Positions 2 through 10,600 of a stretch of 64,000 nucleotides of DNA are shown in pieces. The first letter of the stretch is position 1. The number at the start of each line of letters is the position of its first letter. Under the pieces are notes generated by a model. That model saw only the letters and a list, made by a program, of their open reading frames with translations. It had not been told where the DNA came from and ran no database searches. The translations under genes were made by a program, and so were the position numbers. Location: contig CAIKCJ010000049.1 in NCBI GenBank assembly GCA_903825945.1, positions 1-64,000 of the forward strand. Direction: 5' to 3'. The DNA comes from an uncultured Actinomycetes bacterium. GTDB taxonomy: Bacteria; Actinomycetota; Actinomycetes; Nanopelagicales; Nanopelagicaceae.

Positions 2-352
2 TATGCGGCCCTAGGACCTGCTCAACAAAATGCCATCGGCGATGGATACCAGAACTCACTTGATATTGTTGCCCAAACTCGCGGTTTTGCCGTTGGTTCT
101 GCAGCATTTGCTGCGCTTGCATACACAGGTGGATCAAAGAACGATTGGTTCCTGCCATCTAAAGATGAACTCGCTCAACTTTACGCACAGCAATCAATAG
201 TTGGAGGGTTCGTGGATTTCAGCTACTGGTCCTCGTCTGAGGCCAATGCGGACCCCGCGGACCTCGCGTGGGACCAGGCCTTCAACGTTGGCTTCCAGGG
301 CAACGTCCCTAAGGACCTCGCCCTCTACGTCCGGCCAGTGCGGGCTTTTTAG
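2..352 (+). CDS. 3' end of a DUF1566/Lcl-type C-type-lectin-fold protein (partial)
   Basis: The gene enters from the left edge; about 116 C-terminal codons are present and the stop is TAG at 350-352. The visible part has the DUF1566 (Lcl) pattern: DWFLPSKDEL near the middle, then YWSSSE, AWDQAF, and the terminal VRPVRAF. This family adopts a C-type-lectin-like fold used for ligand binding and is often secreted or surface-exposed. The last ~40 codons differ sharply from the rest: they are GC-rich and dominated by codons ending in C (GCC, GAC, CTC, TTC, GGC, GTC). This is the pattern of a retroelement-diversified variable region (separate entry). The N-terminus, signal peptide and any partners lie outside the window. 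Seen: frame, motifs and codon shift. Inferred: ligand-binding role and diversification. Confidence 0.75.
   Translation, partial: YAALGPAQQNAIGDGYQNSLDIVAQTRGFAVGSAAFAALAYTGGSKNDWFLPSKDELAQLYAQQSIVGGFVDFSYWSSSEANADPADLAWDQAFNVGFQGNVPKDLALYVRPVRAF
224..349 (+). other. Candidate diversity-generating retroelement variable region (VR)
   Basis: This is the 3'-terminal segment of the lectin-fold gene. Between GAG (239-241) and TAC (326-328), 20 of 27 codons at 242-322 end in C or T. The invariant-looking positions are TGG, CAG, AAG and GCG, and adenine is scarce at the variable-looking positions. A template made of AAC/AAT codons at those positions, mutagenised at adenine, would give this pattern. 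The adenine-poor end (CTCTACGTCC then GGCCAGTGCGGG) would suit the initiation-of-homology segment. Known for the family: retroelement target proteins have C-terminal lectin folds with AAC-derived variable codons. The reverse transcriptase and template repeat are not in this window. Confidence 0.55.
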
Positions 353-362
353 CCCTTCATCT

Positions 363-415
363 ATTTACCTATTCACCTATCTAAAAATTTATTTTTTGAT
401 GGTGAATGGGTAAAT
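363..415 (+). terminator. 15-bp inverted repeat just 3' of the lectin-fold gene
   Basis: The arm ATTTACCTATTCACC (363-377) pairs with GGTGAATGGGTAAAT (401-415), with one G-T pair. The 23-nt loop is AT-rich and can pair a little further (ATC 379-381 with GAT 398-400). The stem starts 11 nt after the stop codon. No T-run follows, so it is a poor intrinsic terminator. Stem-loops just downstream of the variable region are known recognition elements in diversity-generating retroelements, so that role is the alternative. Confidence 0.5.
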
Positions 416-435
416 AATTGGGACTTAAAATCCCC

Positions 436-478
436 CGGCTCTGCCTTCGAAGGTTCTAATCCGCGCGCCAAGCCACCA
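436..478 (+). repeat. Cassette-boundary direct repeat, copy R1 (tRNA-3'-end-like)
   Basis: This is identical to 2528-2570 at 42 of 43 positions, with a perfect 36-nt core (436-471) and one mismatch at 472. It contains GGTTCTAATCC, which resembles a T-arm, and ends CCACCA, which resembles a tRNA or tmRNA 3' end. Just upstream, 421-433 reads as a tRNA anticodon arm (loop CTTAAAA, anticodon position UAA). The T-stem does not pair and no 5' half is present, so this is not a functional tRNA. A leftover integration site at a tRNA-like 3' end is the best explanation. Confidence 0.7.
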
Positions 479-768: not shown

Positions 769-2511
769 ATGATCGTTCTCTACTGCGTGGCATTCATCTC
801 TGGCCTTTTCACAATTCTTGCGCCCTGTATCTGGCCGTTGCTTCCGATCGTGCTCGCCGATGTCACGCAATCTAAATCAAAGCGTCGCCCACTTGGTATC
901 ACCGCCGGTGTCGCGCTCTCCTTCGCCTTCTTCACCCTCGCAATCTCCGCTCTGGAGAGTTCGATCGGTTTTAGTCCTAACGTGCTTCGTAAGCTGGCAG
1001 TTGTAGTTCTCCTCGTAATCGGATTTTCGATGGTCGTCCCTGCGCTCTCTCGCCGAATGGAATCTTCCATCTCCCGGCTCGCTGGCCGCTTTGGTGGCAT
1101 GGGCCGCAATCAGCGCAGCGATTTTAGCGGGGGATTTATCACCGGTTTAGCTCTCGGTGTGGTTTGGACTCCATGCAGTGGACCGATCTTGGCTTCGGTT
1201 GCAACCTTGGCGGCCACCAATAAAGTTTCACTGCAAGTGATTTTTGTGACGCTCATCTATGTCGCAGGAGTATCAATCCCGCTCTTCGGCTTTGCGGTCG
1301 GTGGTCAGAAGCTACTTGCGAAGTCTCGCCGCCTCTCTAAGCACACGGCCAGAATTCAAATAGCCTCCGGAGTTGTCATGATCTTGACTGCCGTTGCGAT
1401 CTACACCAACTACGACAAGACCATCGAGACAAAACTCCTCAATTCCATCCCTTCATATTCCAGCGCCCTGACCAAGATTGAAAGTGGCTCGGGCGTGGCC
1501 AAAGCGCTTGCCAAACTTAAGGGAACGAAAGAGATTCCCGGATCAATCACGGGAGATCAGTCAGGTCTATTTAATGCCAACTCCACAGCTCCGGAGTTCA
1601 AGGGTATTACCCAGTGGCTTAATGCGACCGGTGCCCAGACGCTAGCCTCCCTTAAAGGTAAGGTCGTGCTGATTGATTTTTGGACCTACAGTTGTATCAA
1701 CTGCATCCGCACTCTGCCGCACGTGATTGCTTGGTACAACAAGTATCACTCCTCTGGCTTTGAAGTTATTGGAGTGAGCACGCCAGAGTTCGCATTCGAG
1801 AAACAGGCGAGCAATGTCACTAATGCTATCAAGCAATTTAAGATCCCATACCCAGTCGCACTCGATAATAATTACGACACCTGGAACGCCTATAACAATC
1901 AATACTGGCCGGCTGAGTATTTGATCGATGCTAACGGGCAGATCCGCCGTACCGAATTTGGCGAAGGAAATTATCCAGAGAGTGAACAAGCGATCCGCAC
2001 TTTGCTAGCAAACGCTGGCCATACGGTGACTGTTGCTCCAACTGATCTTCCAGATACAACCCCACAGACTCAACTCACCCCGGAGACCTATTTCGGAAGT
2101 AACCGATCACAATTTGGCTATCCGACTCCCAACTATCCAAACGGCACATTCACAATCCCAGTGCAAAAAAGCGTCCCGCTTGATCAATTCGCTCTGGGTG
2201 GAAAGTGGTTGATCCAACCGGATTTCATCCAATCTAGTGCTGGGTCCACCGTGAGCGAACATTTTGATGCAAGTAAAGTCTTTATGATTCTCAATCCCGG
2301 CAAGAGTAGATCGGGTCGGGTCACGGTCACTTACAACGGCAAGCCTCTGATCGGAGCCCTGGCGGGAAGTGATCTCATTAATGGTGTGATTACCGTTAAT
2401 TCAGATCGTCTCTATAACATCTTCGATAGTGGGGCTGCGATGAGCGACGGAACGTTGCAATTCACCTTCCAAGACCACGGAATTCAGGCCTTCACGTTCA
2501 CCTTTGGCTAG
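769..2511 (+). CDS. dipZ: DipZ-like CcdA-thioredoxin fusion protein
   Basis: This 580-residue membrane protein probably moves reducing equivalents across the membrane to thiols outside the cytoplasm. The N-terminal ~220 residues form a CcdA/DsbD-type membrane domain with both family cysteines (LAPCIWPLLP and VWTPCSGPI). Residues ~285-420 are a TlpA-like thioredoxin domain with the redox motif SCINC and an extracytoplasmic LIDFWTYS strand. The final ~120 residues are the beta-rich domain typical of DipZ proteins. The order matches mycobacterial DipZ, which is somewhat longer. ATG is preceded by a purine-rich stretch (GCGAGGGTAAAG). The gene stands alone with one small membrane ORF between direct repeats R1 and R2, so it looks like a mobile or exchangeable cassette. 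Known roles in the family are cytochrome c maturation support or oxidative protection; which applies here is open. Confidence 0.85.
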   Translation: MIVLYCVAFISGLFTILAPCIWPLLPIVLADVTQSKSKRRPLGITAGVALSFAFFTLAISALESSIGFSPNVLRKLAVVVLLVIGFSMVVPALSRRMESSISRLAGRFGGMGRNQRSDFSGGFITGLALGVVWTPCSGPILASVATLAATNKVSLQVIFVTLIYVAGVSIPLFGFAVGGQKLLAKSRRLSKHTARIQIASGVVMILTAVAIYTNYDKTIETKLLNSIPSYSSALTKIESGSGVAKALAKLKGTKEIPGSITGDQSGLFNANSTAPEFKGITQWLNATGAQTLASLKGKVVLIDFWTYSCINCIRTLPHVIAWYNKYHSSGFEVIGVSTPEFAFEKQASNVTNAIKQFKIPYPVALDNNYDTWNAYNNQYWPAEYLIDANGQIRRTEFGEGNYPESEQAIRTLLANAGHTVTVAPTDLPDTTPQTQLTPETYFGSNRSQFGYPTPNYPNGTFTIPVQKSVPLDQFALGGKWLIQPDFIQSSAGSTVSEHFDASKVFMILNPGKSRSGRVTVTYNGKPLIGALAGSDLINGVITVNSDRLYNIFDSGAAMSDGTLQFTFQDHGIQAFTFTFG

Positions 2512-2527
2512 AGGGCTGCAAATTCCA

Positions 2528-2570
2528 CGGCTCTGCCTTCGAAGGTTCTAATCCGCGCGCCAATCCACCA
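2528..2570 (+). repeat. Cassette-boundary direct repeat, copy R2
   Basis: This is the second copy of the 43-bp repeat (42 of 43 identical to 436-478), beginning 16 nt after the DipZ-like stop. Upstream, 2513-2525 reads GGGCTGCAAATTC, similar to an anticodon arm with GCA, but the stem pairs poorly. It continues into ATCCACCAGTATTA (2563-2576), which is nearly repeated at 4905-4918 beyond katG. Confidence 0.75.
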
Positions 2571-4918: not shown

Positions 4919-7527
4919 CGAAGTCCCGCCGCCACACCATTAATTGTGAGCAACAAAGCTCGACGAATCGTTGGGTCAGAATCCCCAGCGCGGACTCGCT
5001 CTAGGAGTGAAACCTGCAAGAGGTGCAGCGGTGCAAGGTATGCATCGCGGATGCCCAATGTGCGCGAAAGTATTGGTTGGTCGCTCAAGATGTCTGTCTT
5101 CTTGGTGAGAAGCAAAATCTCCTCCTTCGTGAGCGCAAATTCCGCTTCAATCTGATCCAAGAAGTGGTGGAGAGATGAATCGGCAAGCTTGGTGACATAT
5201 TTGCGTGCCATTCCGAGGTCCGTCTTGGCCATGGTCATCTCGACATTGGAGATAAAGGTGCGGAAGAAATGCCATTCCGAGAGCATCTGCTCGAGTGAGC
5301 CACTCTTGCCAGCTTCGCGCGCAGCTTTGAGCCCTGAACCAACTCCGAACCAGCCCGGAACGATCTGTCGGGATTGTGTCCATCCAAATACCCATGGAAT
5401 CGCGCGCAGACTACCTAGCCCACCAGAAGCATCGGGGCGGCGAGATGGACGAGAACCCAAGAACATATCGCCTAGCTGTTCGACCGGAGTTGAGGCATAG
5501 AAATATGCAGGCAGATCCGGGTGATCAATAAGTGTGCGATATGCAGCAAAAGAGTTGTCGCTCACGAGATCCATGCATGCCGACCATGCCTCGAGATCTG
5601 CAGGGGATTGACGTGGTGCTCGATTCAGAACAGTCGCTTCTAAAGCGGCTGCAAGTGTGAGTTCAACATTCTCGCGCGCTAACGCAGGCAGCGCGTACTT
5701 ATCACTGATGACTTCACCTTGCTCTGTCATCTTCACTTGGCCATCAATTGATCCCCAAGGAAGTGCAATAAGGGCATCGTAGGTTGGTCCGCCACCGCGA
5801 CCAACAGAACCACCGCGACCATGGAACAAACGAAGTTTCACGCCGTGCTTGATTGCGATGTCACGGAGTTTGCGTTGAGCCTTATGAATTTCCCATTGAG
5901 ATGTCGCAATACCGGCATCTTTATTGGAGTCAGAATAACCAAGCATCACTTCTTGAATATCACCACGAGATCGTACGAGCTCGCGATATTCCGGAGTACT
6001 TAATAGTGAATCAAGGATGAGATCAGCCCCACGTAATTCTGCGACAGTCTCCAAAAGCGGAGCGAATCCGATCTTGGAAGAGTTACCTTGAATGAGACCG
6101 GTGTGCTTAGCAAGTTCAACTGCTGCTAAAACATCGAGGTGAGACTTGGTCATTGAAATGATGTAAGTCTCGATGACTTCTGGTCCAAATTTTTCGATGA
6201 GTTCATTGATGGCGCTAAATGTTGCCAACGTTGCGCTCGCTTGATTATCGAGTGCGTCAGGATTCTTTGCTAGTTCCGCGAGGGCATGGTGATGAGCATC
6301 GGAGTGCTCACGTACATCCATAGTTGCATGGGTAAGTCCAACGCTCGAAACGGCACGGATGGTGCGCTCTAGGAGTCCGTGAGCGATGAGCTCGCCCTTG
6401 TGGGACATGAGTGATTCATGCATGAGCATCAGATCGGCAATGATTTCTGCTGTGTTGTCATAATCGCGACCGGGCACGTGTTCAGCGCCTGCTGCATGAC
6501 GACGCTGAGTCAAAATCAAGCGATGTCGAATAGCGGTTGCTTTCATGCGGTAAGGCTCTTCGACATTGAGGCGTTTGAAACGATCTTCAATCTCGGGAAT
6601 CATCTCTAGATCGCGTGCGACAGATGCTTCAAGCTCTGGCGATGCGCCAGCGATACGAGTAGAGACTGAAAGCGCTTTTCGGAGTTCGTCCAAGCAGGCA
6701 ACCATCCCGCGAATGAAGTGGCCAATCTGCAAAGTGATCGCCTGGCGCGTGATATCTGCGGTGATGTTTGGATTGCCATCACGGTCACCACCAATCCACG
6801 TTCCAAATGAGAGTGGGCGAGATGTGGGAGAAATGGTGACTCCCACACGTGTGAGTTCGCGGGCAAAGTTATCGAGAACATTCGGGATAGTCATAGAGAA
6901 GAGATCATCAAGGTAATACAGCGCATTGACCGCTTCATCTAGTGGTTCAGGTCGACCTAAACGCAACTCATCTGTCTGCCACAGAAGGTCCACTGCTTCA
7001 GCTAAGCGTCGTTCGCGAGTGGCATCTTTTCTATCATCAAGAAGATCAGCAATCGTGCCAAGTTTTGACAGTACTGAACGTCGAGCAGCTTCAGTCGGGT
7101 GAGCCGTGAACACTGGTCGAACAGAGAATTCATTCATCCACTCTTGAAGATCGGCTTGCGTAAAGTCGCCATGGTTCTTTTGAGCTTCAATAATTCGATC
7201 CACTGCGCGTGAAATCCATGAACCGCTGAGTTCGCGCTCTTCTTCTAATACTCGAGCACGGTGTACTTGCTCAGCAACGTTTGCCAGATAGAAATATGTA
7301 CTAAATGCGCGAACTAGTTGGACGCTATCTTCAACGGAAAGGTTGGCGAGAATATCTTCGCCCCCGCCTTCGCGGACTGCCTTGCGTACATTTTCTACAA
7401 GTGCGAGTAGCTCAGCACCTTCTTGGCGAACCAAGCTCTGTCCAAGAAGTTCACCGAGTACGCGTACATCGCTACGCAGTTCTTGGTCATCTCGAGCCAA
7501 CTGGGCGCTAGAACCTGAAGTCGTCAT
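4906..7527 (-). CDS. ppc: Phosphoenolpyruvate carboxylase
   Basis: This 873-residue anaplerotic enzyme makes oxaloacetate from phosphoenolpyruvate and bicarbonate. Signatures seen in order: FTAHPTEAARR with catalytic His143, GYSDSNKDAGIATSQW with the substrate Lys, FHGRGGSVGRGGGPTY (the mobile glycine-rich loop), FGWTQSRQ, and the C-terminal RNTG that closes the active site. Length is slightly below the ~900-930 typical of the family, mainly at the N-terminus. The ATG lies behind GAGGTGGCAGG. The gene is transcribed divergently from mfd across a 128-bp gap. Its last codons overlap repeat R3, so the 3' end of ppc may have been the site where the katG/dipZ cassettes entered. Confidence 0.97.
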   Translation of the reverse strand: MTTSGSSAQLARDDQELRSDVRVLGELLGQSLVRQEGAELLALVENVRKAVREGGGEDILANLSVEDSVQLVRAFSTYFYLANVAEQVHRARVLEEERELSGSWISRAVDRIIEAQKNHGDFTQADLQEWMNEFSVRPVFTAHPTEAARRSVLSKLGTIADLLDDRKDATRERRLAEAVDLLWQTDELRLGRPEPLDEAVNALYYLDDLFSMTIPNVLDNFARELTRVGVTISPTSRPLSFGTWIGGDRDGNPNITADITRQAITLQIGHFIRGMVACLDELRKALSVSTRIAGASPELEASVARDLEMIPEIEDRFKRLNVEEPYRMKATAIRHRLILTQRRHAAGAEHVPGRDYDNTAEIIADLMLMHESLMSHKGELIAHGLLERTIRAVSSVGLTHATMDVREHSDAHHHALAELAKNPDALDNQASATLATFSAINELIEKFGPEVIETYIISMTKSHLDVLAAVELAKHTGLIQGNSSKIGFAPLLETVAELRGADLILDSLLSTPEYRELVRSRGDIQEVMLGYSDSNKDAGIATSQWEIHKAQRKLRDIAIKHGVKLRLFHGRGGSVGRGGGPTYDALIALPWGSIDGQVKMTEQGEVISDKYALPALARENVELTLAAALEATVLNRAPRQSPADLEAWSACMDLVSDNSFAAYRTLIDHPDLPAYFYASTPVEQLGDMFLGSRPSRRPDASGGLGSLRAIPWVFGWTQSRQIVPGWFGVGSGLKAAREAGKSGSLEQMLSEWHFFRTFISNVEMTMAKTDLGMARKYVTKLADSSLHHFLDQIEAEFALTKEEILLLTKKTDILSDQPILSRTLGIRDAYLAPLHLLQVSLLERVRAGDSDPTIRRALLLTINGVAAGLRNTG

Positions 7528-7583
7528 GGGCTAATCCTGCCACCTCTTCGAGGGCCTTTTACGCGTTAGAATTGCATCCATCA

Positions 7584-7608
7584 CCCCCGCCCATTTTGGG
7601 AACGGGGG
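7584..7608 (+). promoter_or_regulatory. GC-rich stem-loop in the mfd leader
   Basis: CCCCCG (7584-7589) pairs with CGGGGG (7603-7608), and inside it CCC (7590-7592) pairs with GGG (7598-7600) around ATTTT. It lies 48 bp before the mfd start in the ppc-mfd divergent gap. No T-run follows, so it is not a standard terminator; an RNA leader structure or binding site is possible. Confidence 0.4.
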
Positions 7609-7655
7609 CTTAGGTCGTTATATGACCACGTACATAGTGAGGAGGTAGTCGTCTG

Positions 7656-10600
7656 ATGAGCAGATTAATTGATGCTTTCTCAAACATTGAGATAGATCAG
7701 AGCACTGAGCACTGCCAAGCCCCCACTTTTGTTACCGGGATGTTTCTGGCCAAGAGAGCGCTGCACACGCCACTCCTGATCGTCACTTCTTCTTCACGAA
7801 AAGCATCAGAAATCAAAGATGAGTTGGTGACATACCATGGCGACGATGCAGCCGTTGAGTTCCCGCCATGGGAGACCTTGCCTCATGAGAAGTTGAGCCC
7901 GAAGAGCGACACGGTGGCCGCTCGTGCCAAGGTCCTAACCGGAATTGCAGATCGGTCAATTGTTATTACGTCGGTGCGCGCACTTATTCAGCCGATCTCG
8001 CAGCAGATTGCACACTTTCAAGCGATTGAGTTAGAGCTTGGTCTTGAAATTTCCATGGATAAGTTGCTTACGACCCTCACACTGCTTGGCTATAACCGAA
8101 CCGATCTCGTTGAGAAACGTGGTGATTACGCAGTACGCGGCGGAATTGTTGATCTCTTTCTTCCTGATCAAGACCACCCATTCCGTATTGATTTCTTCGG
8201 AGATGAGATTGAAGAATTGGCTTGGTTCACTGTTGCAGATCAGCGCACCTATGCGCCGGTGGTTGGAGCAATAGCCATCTATCCATGTCGCGAACTCCTC
8301 ATTACTGAAAAGGTCAGGAATAAAGCACGTCATCTGGCAGTTCGATATCCTCAGGTAGCCGAGATGGCTGCCAAGATCTCTGAAGGAATCTATGTCGATG
8401 GCATGGAATCCCTTATGGGGTTGCTCGAGGATGACCTCACCTCGTTGATTGACTTGCTTCCAAAGAATTTCGAAGTAGTGCTGATTGATGAGCAGCGCAT
8501 TGCTTCACGTGGCCTGGACCTTATAAACACAAATAAAGAATTTCTTACAGCATCGTGGTCAAGTGCCGCCATGGGTGGGGAAGCGCCGATCGATCTCTCG
8601 ATGGCCCTAGAGGCCGGGGGCTATTACAGCTTGCCAGCCTTGCGAGATAAGGCGCTTACATGGAGTTCAATCGACCCCTACGCCAGCGGAGTTGATTCAC
8701 ATCAGAGCACAGAAATCTTTGGCGCCGTACCGGAGTATCGAGGCAAGCTCGATCTTTTATCGTCAGATATTGGCAAATGGATAAACGAGGGGTATCTCGT
8801 TATTTTCACGGCTGCCGGCAAAGGCATTGTGGAGCGATTCGCAAAACTCTTTCAAGCCGCTGATCTGCCTGTTCGACTACTTAAGAACGTCTCATCAAAC
8901 CTAACCCGAGATGCCGTTTACGTATTGGCCACCCCTATCGAGCATGGCTTTGTCTGTGATGAATTTAAGGCAATTCTTATTACAGAGAAAGATGTCTCTG
9001 GTGTTCGATCATCTAATAAAGATCAGGTGCGAATGCCATCGCGTCGCAAGAAGGCCATTGATCCTCTCGAACTAAAGCCAGGCGATTATGTTGTGCATGA
9101 GCAGCATGGTGTAGGTAAATATGTTGAGTTAGTACAGCGAACTGTTGCTGGCGTCGCTCGCGAATATCTTGTTATCGAATACGCGGCGTCAAAGCGAGGA
9201 CAATCTGGTGATCGACTTTTTGTTCCTACTGACACTCTTGAACAAGTCACTCGTTATGTTGGTGGTGAAGCACCAGCAGTTCATCGAATTGGTGGTGCCG
9301 ATTGGCAAAATGCCAAGAAGCGAGCACGCAAAGCAGTCAAACAAATTGCAGGAGAACTAATCCAACTGTATGCAGCGAGAATGAGTGCGCCAGGTTTTGC
9401 CTTCTCGCAAGACACTCCATGGCAGCGGGAGTTAGAAGCGGCATTTAGATATGTCGAAACTATCGATCAGCAATCTACGATCGATGAGGTCAAGCGCGAT
9501 ATGGAGCGCTCATATCCAATGGATCGCGTGATCTGTGGCGATGTTGGATATGGCAAGACAGAGATTGCGATTCGCGCGGCCTTTAAAGCAGTTCAAGATG
9601 CAAAACAGGTAGCTGTTCTTGTTCCAACGACGCTTCTGGTCCAGCAACACTTCAAGACTTTCGAAGACCGCTATGCCGGATTTCCGGTTCGATTAGCAGG
9701 GCTTTCACGATTTAGTACAGCTAAAGAGTCGAAAGAGATTCTTGAAGGCTTAGCTAATGGTTCGATTGACGTAGTTATCGGTACCCACAGATTGCTATCC
9801 AAAGATGTGAATTTCAAGGACTTGGGCCTCGTAATTGTGGACGAAGAGCAGCGCTTTGGTGTCGAGCATAAAGAAGAGCTGAAAAAGACTCGCACAAATG
9901 TCGATGTGCTCTCTATGTCGGCCACGCCTATTCCACGCACGTTAGAGATGGCTATTACCGGCATTCGCGAAATGTCTAACATCACAACACCGCCGGAAGA
10001 ACGCCACCCAGTTCTTACCTACGTCGGTCCATACGATGAGAAGCAGGTAACCGCTGCGATTCACCGAGAATTGCTCCGTGATGGTCAGATATTTTTCATT
10101 CACAACAGAGTCGAGAGCATCGACAAAGTCGTTATTAGACTTAAAGAACTTGTCCCAGAAGCGCGCATTCGAGTTGCTCATGGCCAAATGGGTGAGCGCG
10201 AACTCGAAGATGTCATCTTAGGTTTCTGGGAGAGAGAATTCGATATCCTGGTCTGTACAACAATTATCGAATCAGGAATTGATATTCCAAATGCTAATAC
10301 GTTGATCGTTGATCGCTCTGAGAATTTCGGACTCTCGCAATTGCATCAGCTACGCGGCCGAGTTGGACGTGCACGCGAACGCGCTTATGCATATTTCCTC
10401 TACTCACCCGATAAGCCGCTCACCGAAGTTGCGCATGATCGCCTCACGACGATTGCAACCAACACCGACCTTGGTTCCGGTATGCAAGTTGCACTCAAGG
10501 ATCTTGAAATCCGTGGAGCCGGAAATCTTCTTGGCGGCGAGCAGTCTGGGCATATTGCTGAAGTCGGCTTTGATTTGTATATGCGCATGGTTGGAGAAGC

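Follow-up and report, generated by a model that had tools for sequence, protein, structure and literature searches.

The stretch of DNA analysed here (the window) is 64,000 nt long and corresponds to bases 1-64000 of contig C49, which totals 107,260 bp in a draft assembly of 1.26 Mb, 51 contigs and 94.8% completeness. As the window starts at base 1 of C49, its left edge is a contig end. The small genome size and the one named relative found, Actinobacteria bacterium IMCC26103, point to a streamlined actinobacterium. Comparisons were made within a family set of 296 genomes labelled with G-numbers, this genome being G000. G093 belongs to the same genus as this genome and G212 to another, and G212 and G114 are of different genera. 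The features of the left edge are listed in Table 1.

Table 1. Features at the left end of the window (VR, variable region; TR, template repeat)
Feature	Positions	Strand	Basis or remark
Target gene 3' part, Lcl_C / DUF1566	2..352	+	ORF open at contig edge; Pfam, phmmer
VR homologous to TRs of G212, G114 and G139	200..352	+	adenine-restricted mismatches
Span of adenine-derived substitutions (28 positions)	208..324	+	alignment to template
9 bp absent from known templates, extra AACAACGCG-like unit	248..256	+	placement ambiguous within repeat
IMH-like conserved VR 3' end	326..349	+	G>C vs IMH* of template
VR 3' flank, conserved	353..418	+	88% identical to G010, 80% to G212; ends where G010 avd starts
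Long inverted repeat / hairpin after VR	362..416	+	-16.2 kcal/mol, z=-7.2
tRNA-Tyr(GTA) 3'-end remnant, att-like junction 1	420..478	+	43 bp at 93% to tRNA-Tyr
DsbD-like / TlpA-like thioredoxin gene between remnants	769..2511	+	Pfam DsbD_TM, Redoxin, Thioredoxin_10
Second tRNA-Tyr 3' remnant, att-like junction 2	2510..2570	+	exact 34-bp repeat of junction 1

The target gene

The first open frame encodes the last 116 codons of an Lcl_C protein (PF07603, formerly DUF1566); its 5' part, coding for the N-terminal half, lies off the contig. The Pfam Lcl_C score is 36.4 bits (cut-off 34.9), and phmmer matches the domain to the structure 8q4e (E=3.6e-4), which belongs to Lcl (PMC11162425). Both matches agree with the original prediction, which had read the left edge as the end of a lectin-fold DUF1566 gene, and they show that the VR forms the C-terminal end of a binding domain with a C-type-lectin fold. 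A single-sequence structure model of the domain, built with no alignment, reached a pLDDT of 38 (very low confidence) and was left out of the evidence.

The collagen-like adhesin Lcl of Legionella (PDB 8q4e/8qk8; PMC11162425) has a C-terminal domain of the same family. Like Lcl, the target protein of G212 carries a collagen repeat before its Lcl_C domain; it also matches NF046116, below the cut-off. A difference is that the main text of PMC11162425 mentions no diversity-generating elements. The target protein is most likely a surface or secreted stalk protein that displays a variable tip for ligand binding.

Comparison of the variable region with templates of relatives

The end of the gene differs in composition from what precedes it. 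The predicted GC-rich switch is seen as a rise in GC content from about 0.47 to 0.66 at 251-350. The other compositional argument, that 20 of 27 codons end in C or T at 242-322, was counted correctly. Set beside 46 of 80 such codons in 2-241 and 58-62% in neighbouring genes, it is mildly unusual and weak taken alone. Chance or composition was rejected as an explanation, the codon-ending bias by itself being weak and the template match strong.

The prediction also anticipated an AAC-rich template from which the VR would differ at adenines. Such templates, with 18 AAY codons, are present in G212, G114 and G139. In a plain alignment of the G212 TR to positions 200-349 of the window (141 bp compared), changes were found at 28 of 48 template adenines and at 1 of 93 other bases (Fisher p=1.4e-15); 28 of the 29 mismatches (97%) thus lie at template adenines, with the template taken from relatives. 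The VR of G212 itself differs from its TR at 23/48 adenines and 1/93 other bases, and that of G010 from the G212 TR at 27/48 and 1/93. The lone change outside adenines, G>C, is common to the three VRs and represents the IMH/IMH* difference. In the window it lies at 345, and the sole other non-adenine difference is C>T at 350.

The 28 adenine-derived changes are distributed over first (15), second (12) and third (1) codon positions. By the genetic code, an AAY codon mutated at its adenines keeps its third base; stop codons would require a change of that base, and codons of the TAY type are sense codons. In nearly all DGRs (diversity-generating retroelements), at least 75% of the mismatches are at template adenines (PMC8144416), a share that the 97% of the window exceeds, and the 3' end of the window VR is slightly different from the IMH* of the TR. 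On sequence grounds, the original prediction was right that the left edge holds the VR of a DGR, here placed at 200-352. Its extent needs correcting, however: the region matches the template as proposed, but it begins at about 200 rather than 224, with changes at 208-324.

The similarity to the template has a sharp edge. All 45 comparable third codon positions that are not adenine in the template are identical to it, and positions 1-199, upstream of the VR, are 66.7% identical to the best relative, G010. Third-position identity with such an edge points to copying from a template, and selection on the protein does not explain the pattern. Ordinary diversifying selection on exposed lectin-like loops in a GC-rich patch, with no retroelement involved, could draw on the Lcl_C homologues present in 73 of the 296 family genomes, several of which show a weak adenine bias relative to this TR (e.g. 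G193 and G135, 27/48 vs 25/92). Nevertheless, it could not fix 45 of 45 third positions beside a 67%-identical upstream region, nor does it fit the adenine restriction. We regard this explanation as refuted by the template match and give it hardly any credence.

Cassettes in relatives and the tRNA-Tyr islands

A search of the family detected an RT (reverse transcriptase) domain in five genomes, three of which (G212, G114 and G139) have a DGR-type cassette. The RTs of these three genomes are 394 aa long, score above the RVT_1 cut-off and contain YVDD and IGNLSSQ, which we take to be the DGR form of RT motif 4. Upstream of the RT gene lies a template-like repeat; read in the VR frame, it gives an NN-rich peptide. 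The Avd proteins of the relatives have 127 aa and score 82 bits with bAvd (cut-off 40) and 63.8 bits with NF033474, below its cut-off of 80. The order target-Avd-TR-RT was found on one contig in G139 and across two contigs in G212, where target, Avd and TR end one contig, TR and RT start another, and the TR is exactly shared. In G114 the cassette is on a 3.3-kb contig, and the target is unassembled there. Taken together, a DGR-type RT motif 4, Avd, TR and VR in one cassette characterize G212, G114 and G139. RT matches in G275:C63 (L043) and G214:C140 (L044) lie in ORFs of more than 1,000 aa, the latter with a retroviral/gag-type zinc knuckle; these domains are probably eukaryotic retrotransposon contamination of the bins.

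Among the Pfam domains of DGR targets, DUF1566 is the most frequent (PMC6642488), and DUF1566 targets as well as remote VRs are already known (PMC6642488, PMC8144416). The present system resembles the described DUF1566-target DGRs (PMC6642488, PMC4159848) in its adenine-restricted VR/TR mismatches, IMH/IMH* difference, Avd, RT and C-terminal VR in the DUF1566 domain. It differs from them in three respects: VR and cassette are apart, tRNA-Tyr 3' repeats delimit the cassette in two relatives, and the template of the relatives is nearly the same across genera. Our literature search, whose coverage was incomplete, especially for subscription journals, turned up no DGR reported from this lineage and no description of either a tRNA-Tyr-bounded cassette or a near-identical template in different genera.

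A viral origin was rejected: the target protein and the core VR motif have no match in IMG/VR or the phage collection, and phage relatives of the RT are at most 45% identical. A single IMG/VR provirus RT reaches 58%. That provirus, UViG_2582580686 (L070), also resembles our system in having an Avd-like protein of 124 aa and a DUF1566-type target with YWSSSE...VRAVRAF; it differs in its phage-like gene neighbourhood, where no tRNA-Tyr-bounded cassette was seen. Its target is fused to a long repeat region.

Att-like tRNA-Tyr repeats are present in the window, G212, G114 and G010, and more than one copy of the tRNA-Tyr 3' sequence occurs in this genome and in a minority of the other family genomes. 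The intact tRNA-Tyr(GTA) gene of this genome is at C18:99674-99758 of 99,805, 47 bp from the contig end. In G093, tRNA-Tyr is followed by an MMPL gene, with KatG 4 kb further on. KatG also follows the second remnant of the window, which supports C18 and C49 as neighbours; their adjacency is inferred from this synteny, the join not being sequenced. The DsbD/TlpA-like gene and the two remnants around it look like a further unit of the island type, stacked at the same place.

Downstream of its RT gene, G114 has a perfect tRNA-Tyr repeat of 56 bp and, after it, the MMPL gene seen in G093, so that G093 shows the site in its unoccupied state and G114 shows where the island ends on the right. The similarity between G212 and G114 stops at the end of the tRNA repeat, and an intact tRNA-Tyr lies upstream of the target gene in G212. 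In G010, tRNA-Tyr is followed by an fn3-Lcl_C gene and the VR gene, and then by an avd that the tRNA repeat cuts short near codon 49. Direct repeats of the tRNA 3' end and an unoccupied site in a relative, the usual marks of a tRNA island, are thus both found. Cassettes ending in the tRNA-Tyr repeat in G212 and G114, together with the empty site of G093, indicate that the DGR travels as a tRNA-Tyr-bounded island. The G139 cassette has no adjoining tRNA-Tyr repeat in the contig examined, so the link with the tRNA is frequent and not universal. No integrase was seen in the island parts examined, including the genes checked in G014 and G111.

Other arrangements were noted at the same tRNA. G014:C45 (L127) has, at 5212-8064, tRNA-Tyr, a 904-aa glycine-rich repeat protein (List_Bact_rpt) and a tRNA-Tyr 3' repeat, i.e. 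a single-gene cassette at this site with no integrase. In G010:C51 (L071), positions 9465-9605 exactly repeat the 141 bp of 5740-5880, starting at the tRNA-Tyr 3' end and extending into what lies downstream; this repeat sits at a contig end and is either a tandem island unit or an assembly artefact. The hairpin downstream of the window VR is near-perfect there and weaker in G010. A role as a conserved DGR recognition hairpin was rejected, as it is absent in G212 (z=0.4) and G139 (z=-1.0).

Nucleotide identity between G212 and G114 is 90.7% for RT and 95.8% for avd, against 67.3% for the core gene PEPC, the sole pair aligned over enough length to serve as a yardstick. The cassette has moved between genera. 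A broader proposal, covering this family of small-genome actinobacteria, is that an integrase-less module at tRNA-Tyr with a near-invariant template moves between genera and rewrites resident Lcl_C tips in trans, refreshing cassette-less targets, such as the one in the window, each time it passes; we consider it rather doubtful.

A target separated from its cassette

Downstream of the VR come the tRNA-Tyr remnant and then the DsbD-like gene, and the upstream side is off the contig. No complete DGR, with RT, Avd and TR adjoining the VR, is present on the downstream side within the window. The VR 3' flank matches G010 up to the start of avd, where the window has the tRNA-Tyr remnant instead; this copy of the island therefore has no avd-TR-RT downstream of the VR. 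At this locus, then, a DGR target stands apart from its cassette. The search for RT, Avd and template suggested with the original prediction succeeded in G212, G114 and G139, and yielded none of them in the 51 contigs of this genome.

In DGRs, the RT and Avd copy the TR RNA and put random bases opposite its adenines; the resulting cDNA then takes the place of the VR beside the IMH. Here, a G212-type cassette (Avd, TR and RT) would have reverse-transcribed its AAC-rich template, inserting random bases wherever the template has an adenine. The mutated cDNA would then have replaced the 3' end of the Lcl_C (C-type-lectin-like) binding domain, giving a protein with a variable Lcl_C tip, and the target gene would lie in an island between the intact tRNA-Tyr at the end of C18 and the degenerate tRNA-Tyr 3' repeat at 420-478. 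From the sequence comparisons, we put at about 93% the probability that this is a DGR VR written from a G212-type template, with its gene in a tRNA-Tyr island and its cassette lost or unassembled. The extra 9-bp unit, unmatched by known templates, counts against copying from a G212-type template.

From the missing avd-TR-RT after the VR, we infer that the cassette was either lost recently or is in unassembled DNA and acts in trans, with about equal odds that slightly favour loss. In the case of loss, which we hold to be an even bet, recombination at tRNA-Tyr would have cut the cassette away and left the VR frozen. The position of the tRNA repeat fits such an event, as it truncates avd in G010 and starts where avd would start in the window. 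Furthermore, VR-like DNA is found in 15 family genomes versus an RT-TR cassette in 3 and Avd in 4, and one of the 15, the closed genome G133, has a VR-like gene and no RT. On the other hand, unassembled DNA could still contain the cassette, and a frozen VR should collect non-adenine changes, of which the window has none outside the IMH.

The VR-like sequence of G133 (L078) differs from the template at 25/47 adenines versus 15/87 other bases, and its gene is followed by the 3' fragment of a different tRNA, tRNA-Leu. It is likely an old orphan target.

The absence of non-adenine differences outside the IMH suggests recent writing, which would suit a target that is remote and still active, rewritten in trans by an RT, Avd and TR that the species has in the C18-C49 gap or on a short contig that was lost. 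The completeness of 94.8% leaves room for them, cassette loci break assemblies (as with the TR on two contig ends in G212 and the 3.3-kb contig of G114), and the extra AACAACGCG unit could mean that the species has a template of its own. Against this stand the search of the 51 contigs, in which no cassette part turned up, and the tRNA-Tyr remnant that occupies the usual place of the cassette right after the VR. We judge continued activity plausible, at somewhat less than even chances. Ongoing diversification in this genome is unproven, since the searches for RT, Avd and TR turned up none of them.

Alternatively, horizontal transfer of the island might have brought in a VR gene that was mutated beforehand and has never been rewritten in this lineage, which the identities of RT and avd between genera would allow. 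The positions that vary in this VR are not those of the other aligned VRs, and the upstream sequence has diverged; these observations argue against such an arrival and are not decisive, and we find it unlikely. Our preferred reading remains that of a VR written from a G212-type template, whose cassette was lost or is unassembled.

DGRs introduce random changes on purpose, confined to one selected part of a selected protein. Were such a system, with a shared template, to be found in small-genome actinobacteria, even streamlined bacteria would be paying for a hypervariable binding protein. The authors of PMC8144416 state that their own search near the RT misses separated targets, and surveys based on RT proximity miss targets such as the VR of the window. 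As for how DGRs may move between genera and leave targets behind, the tRNA-Tyr boundaries suggest one route.
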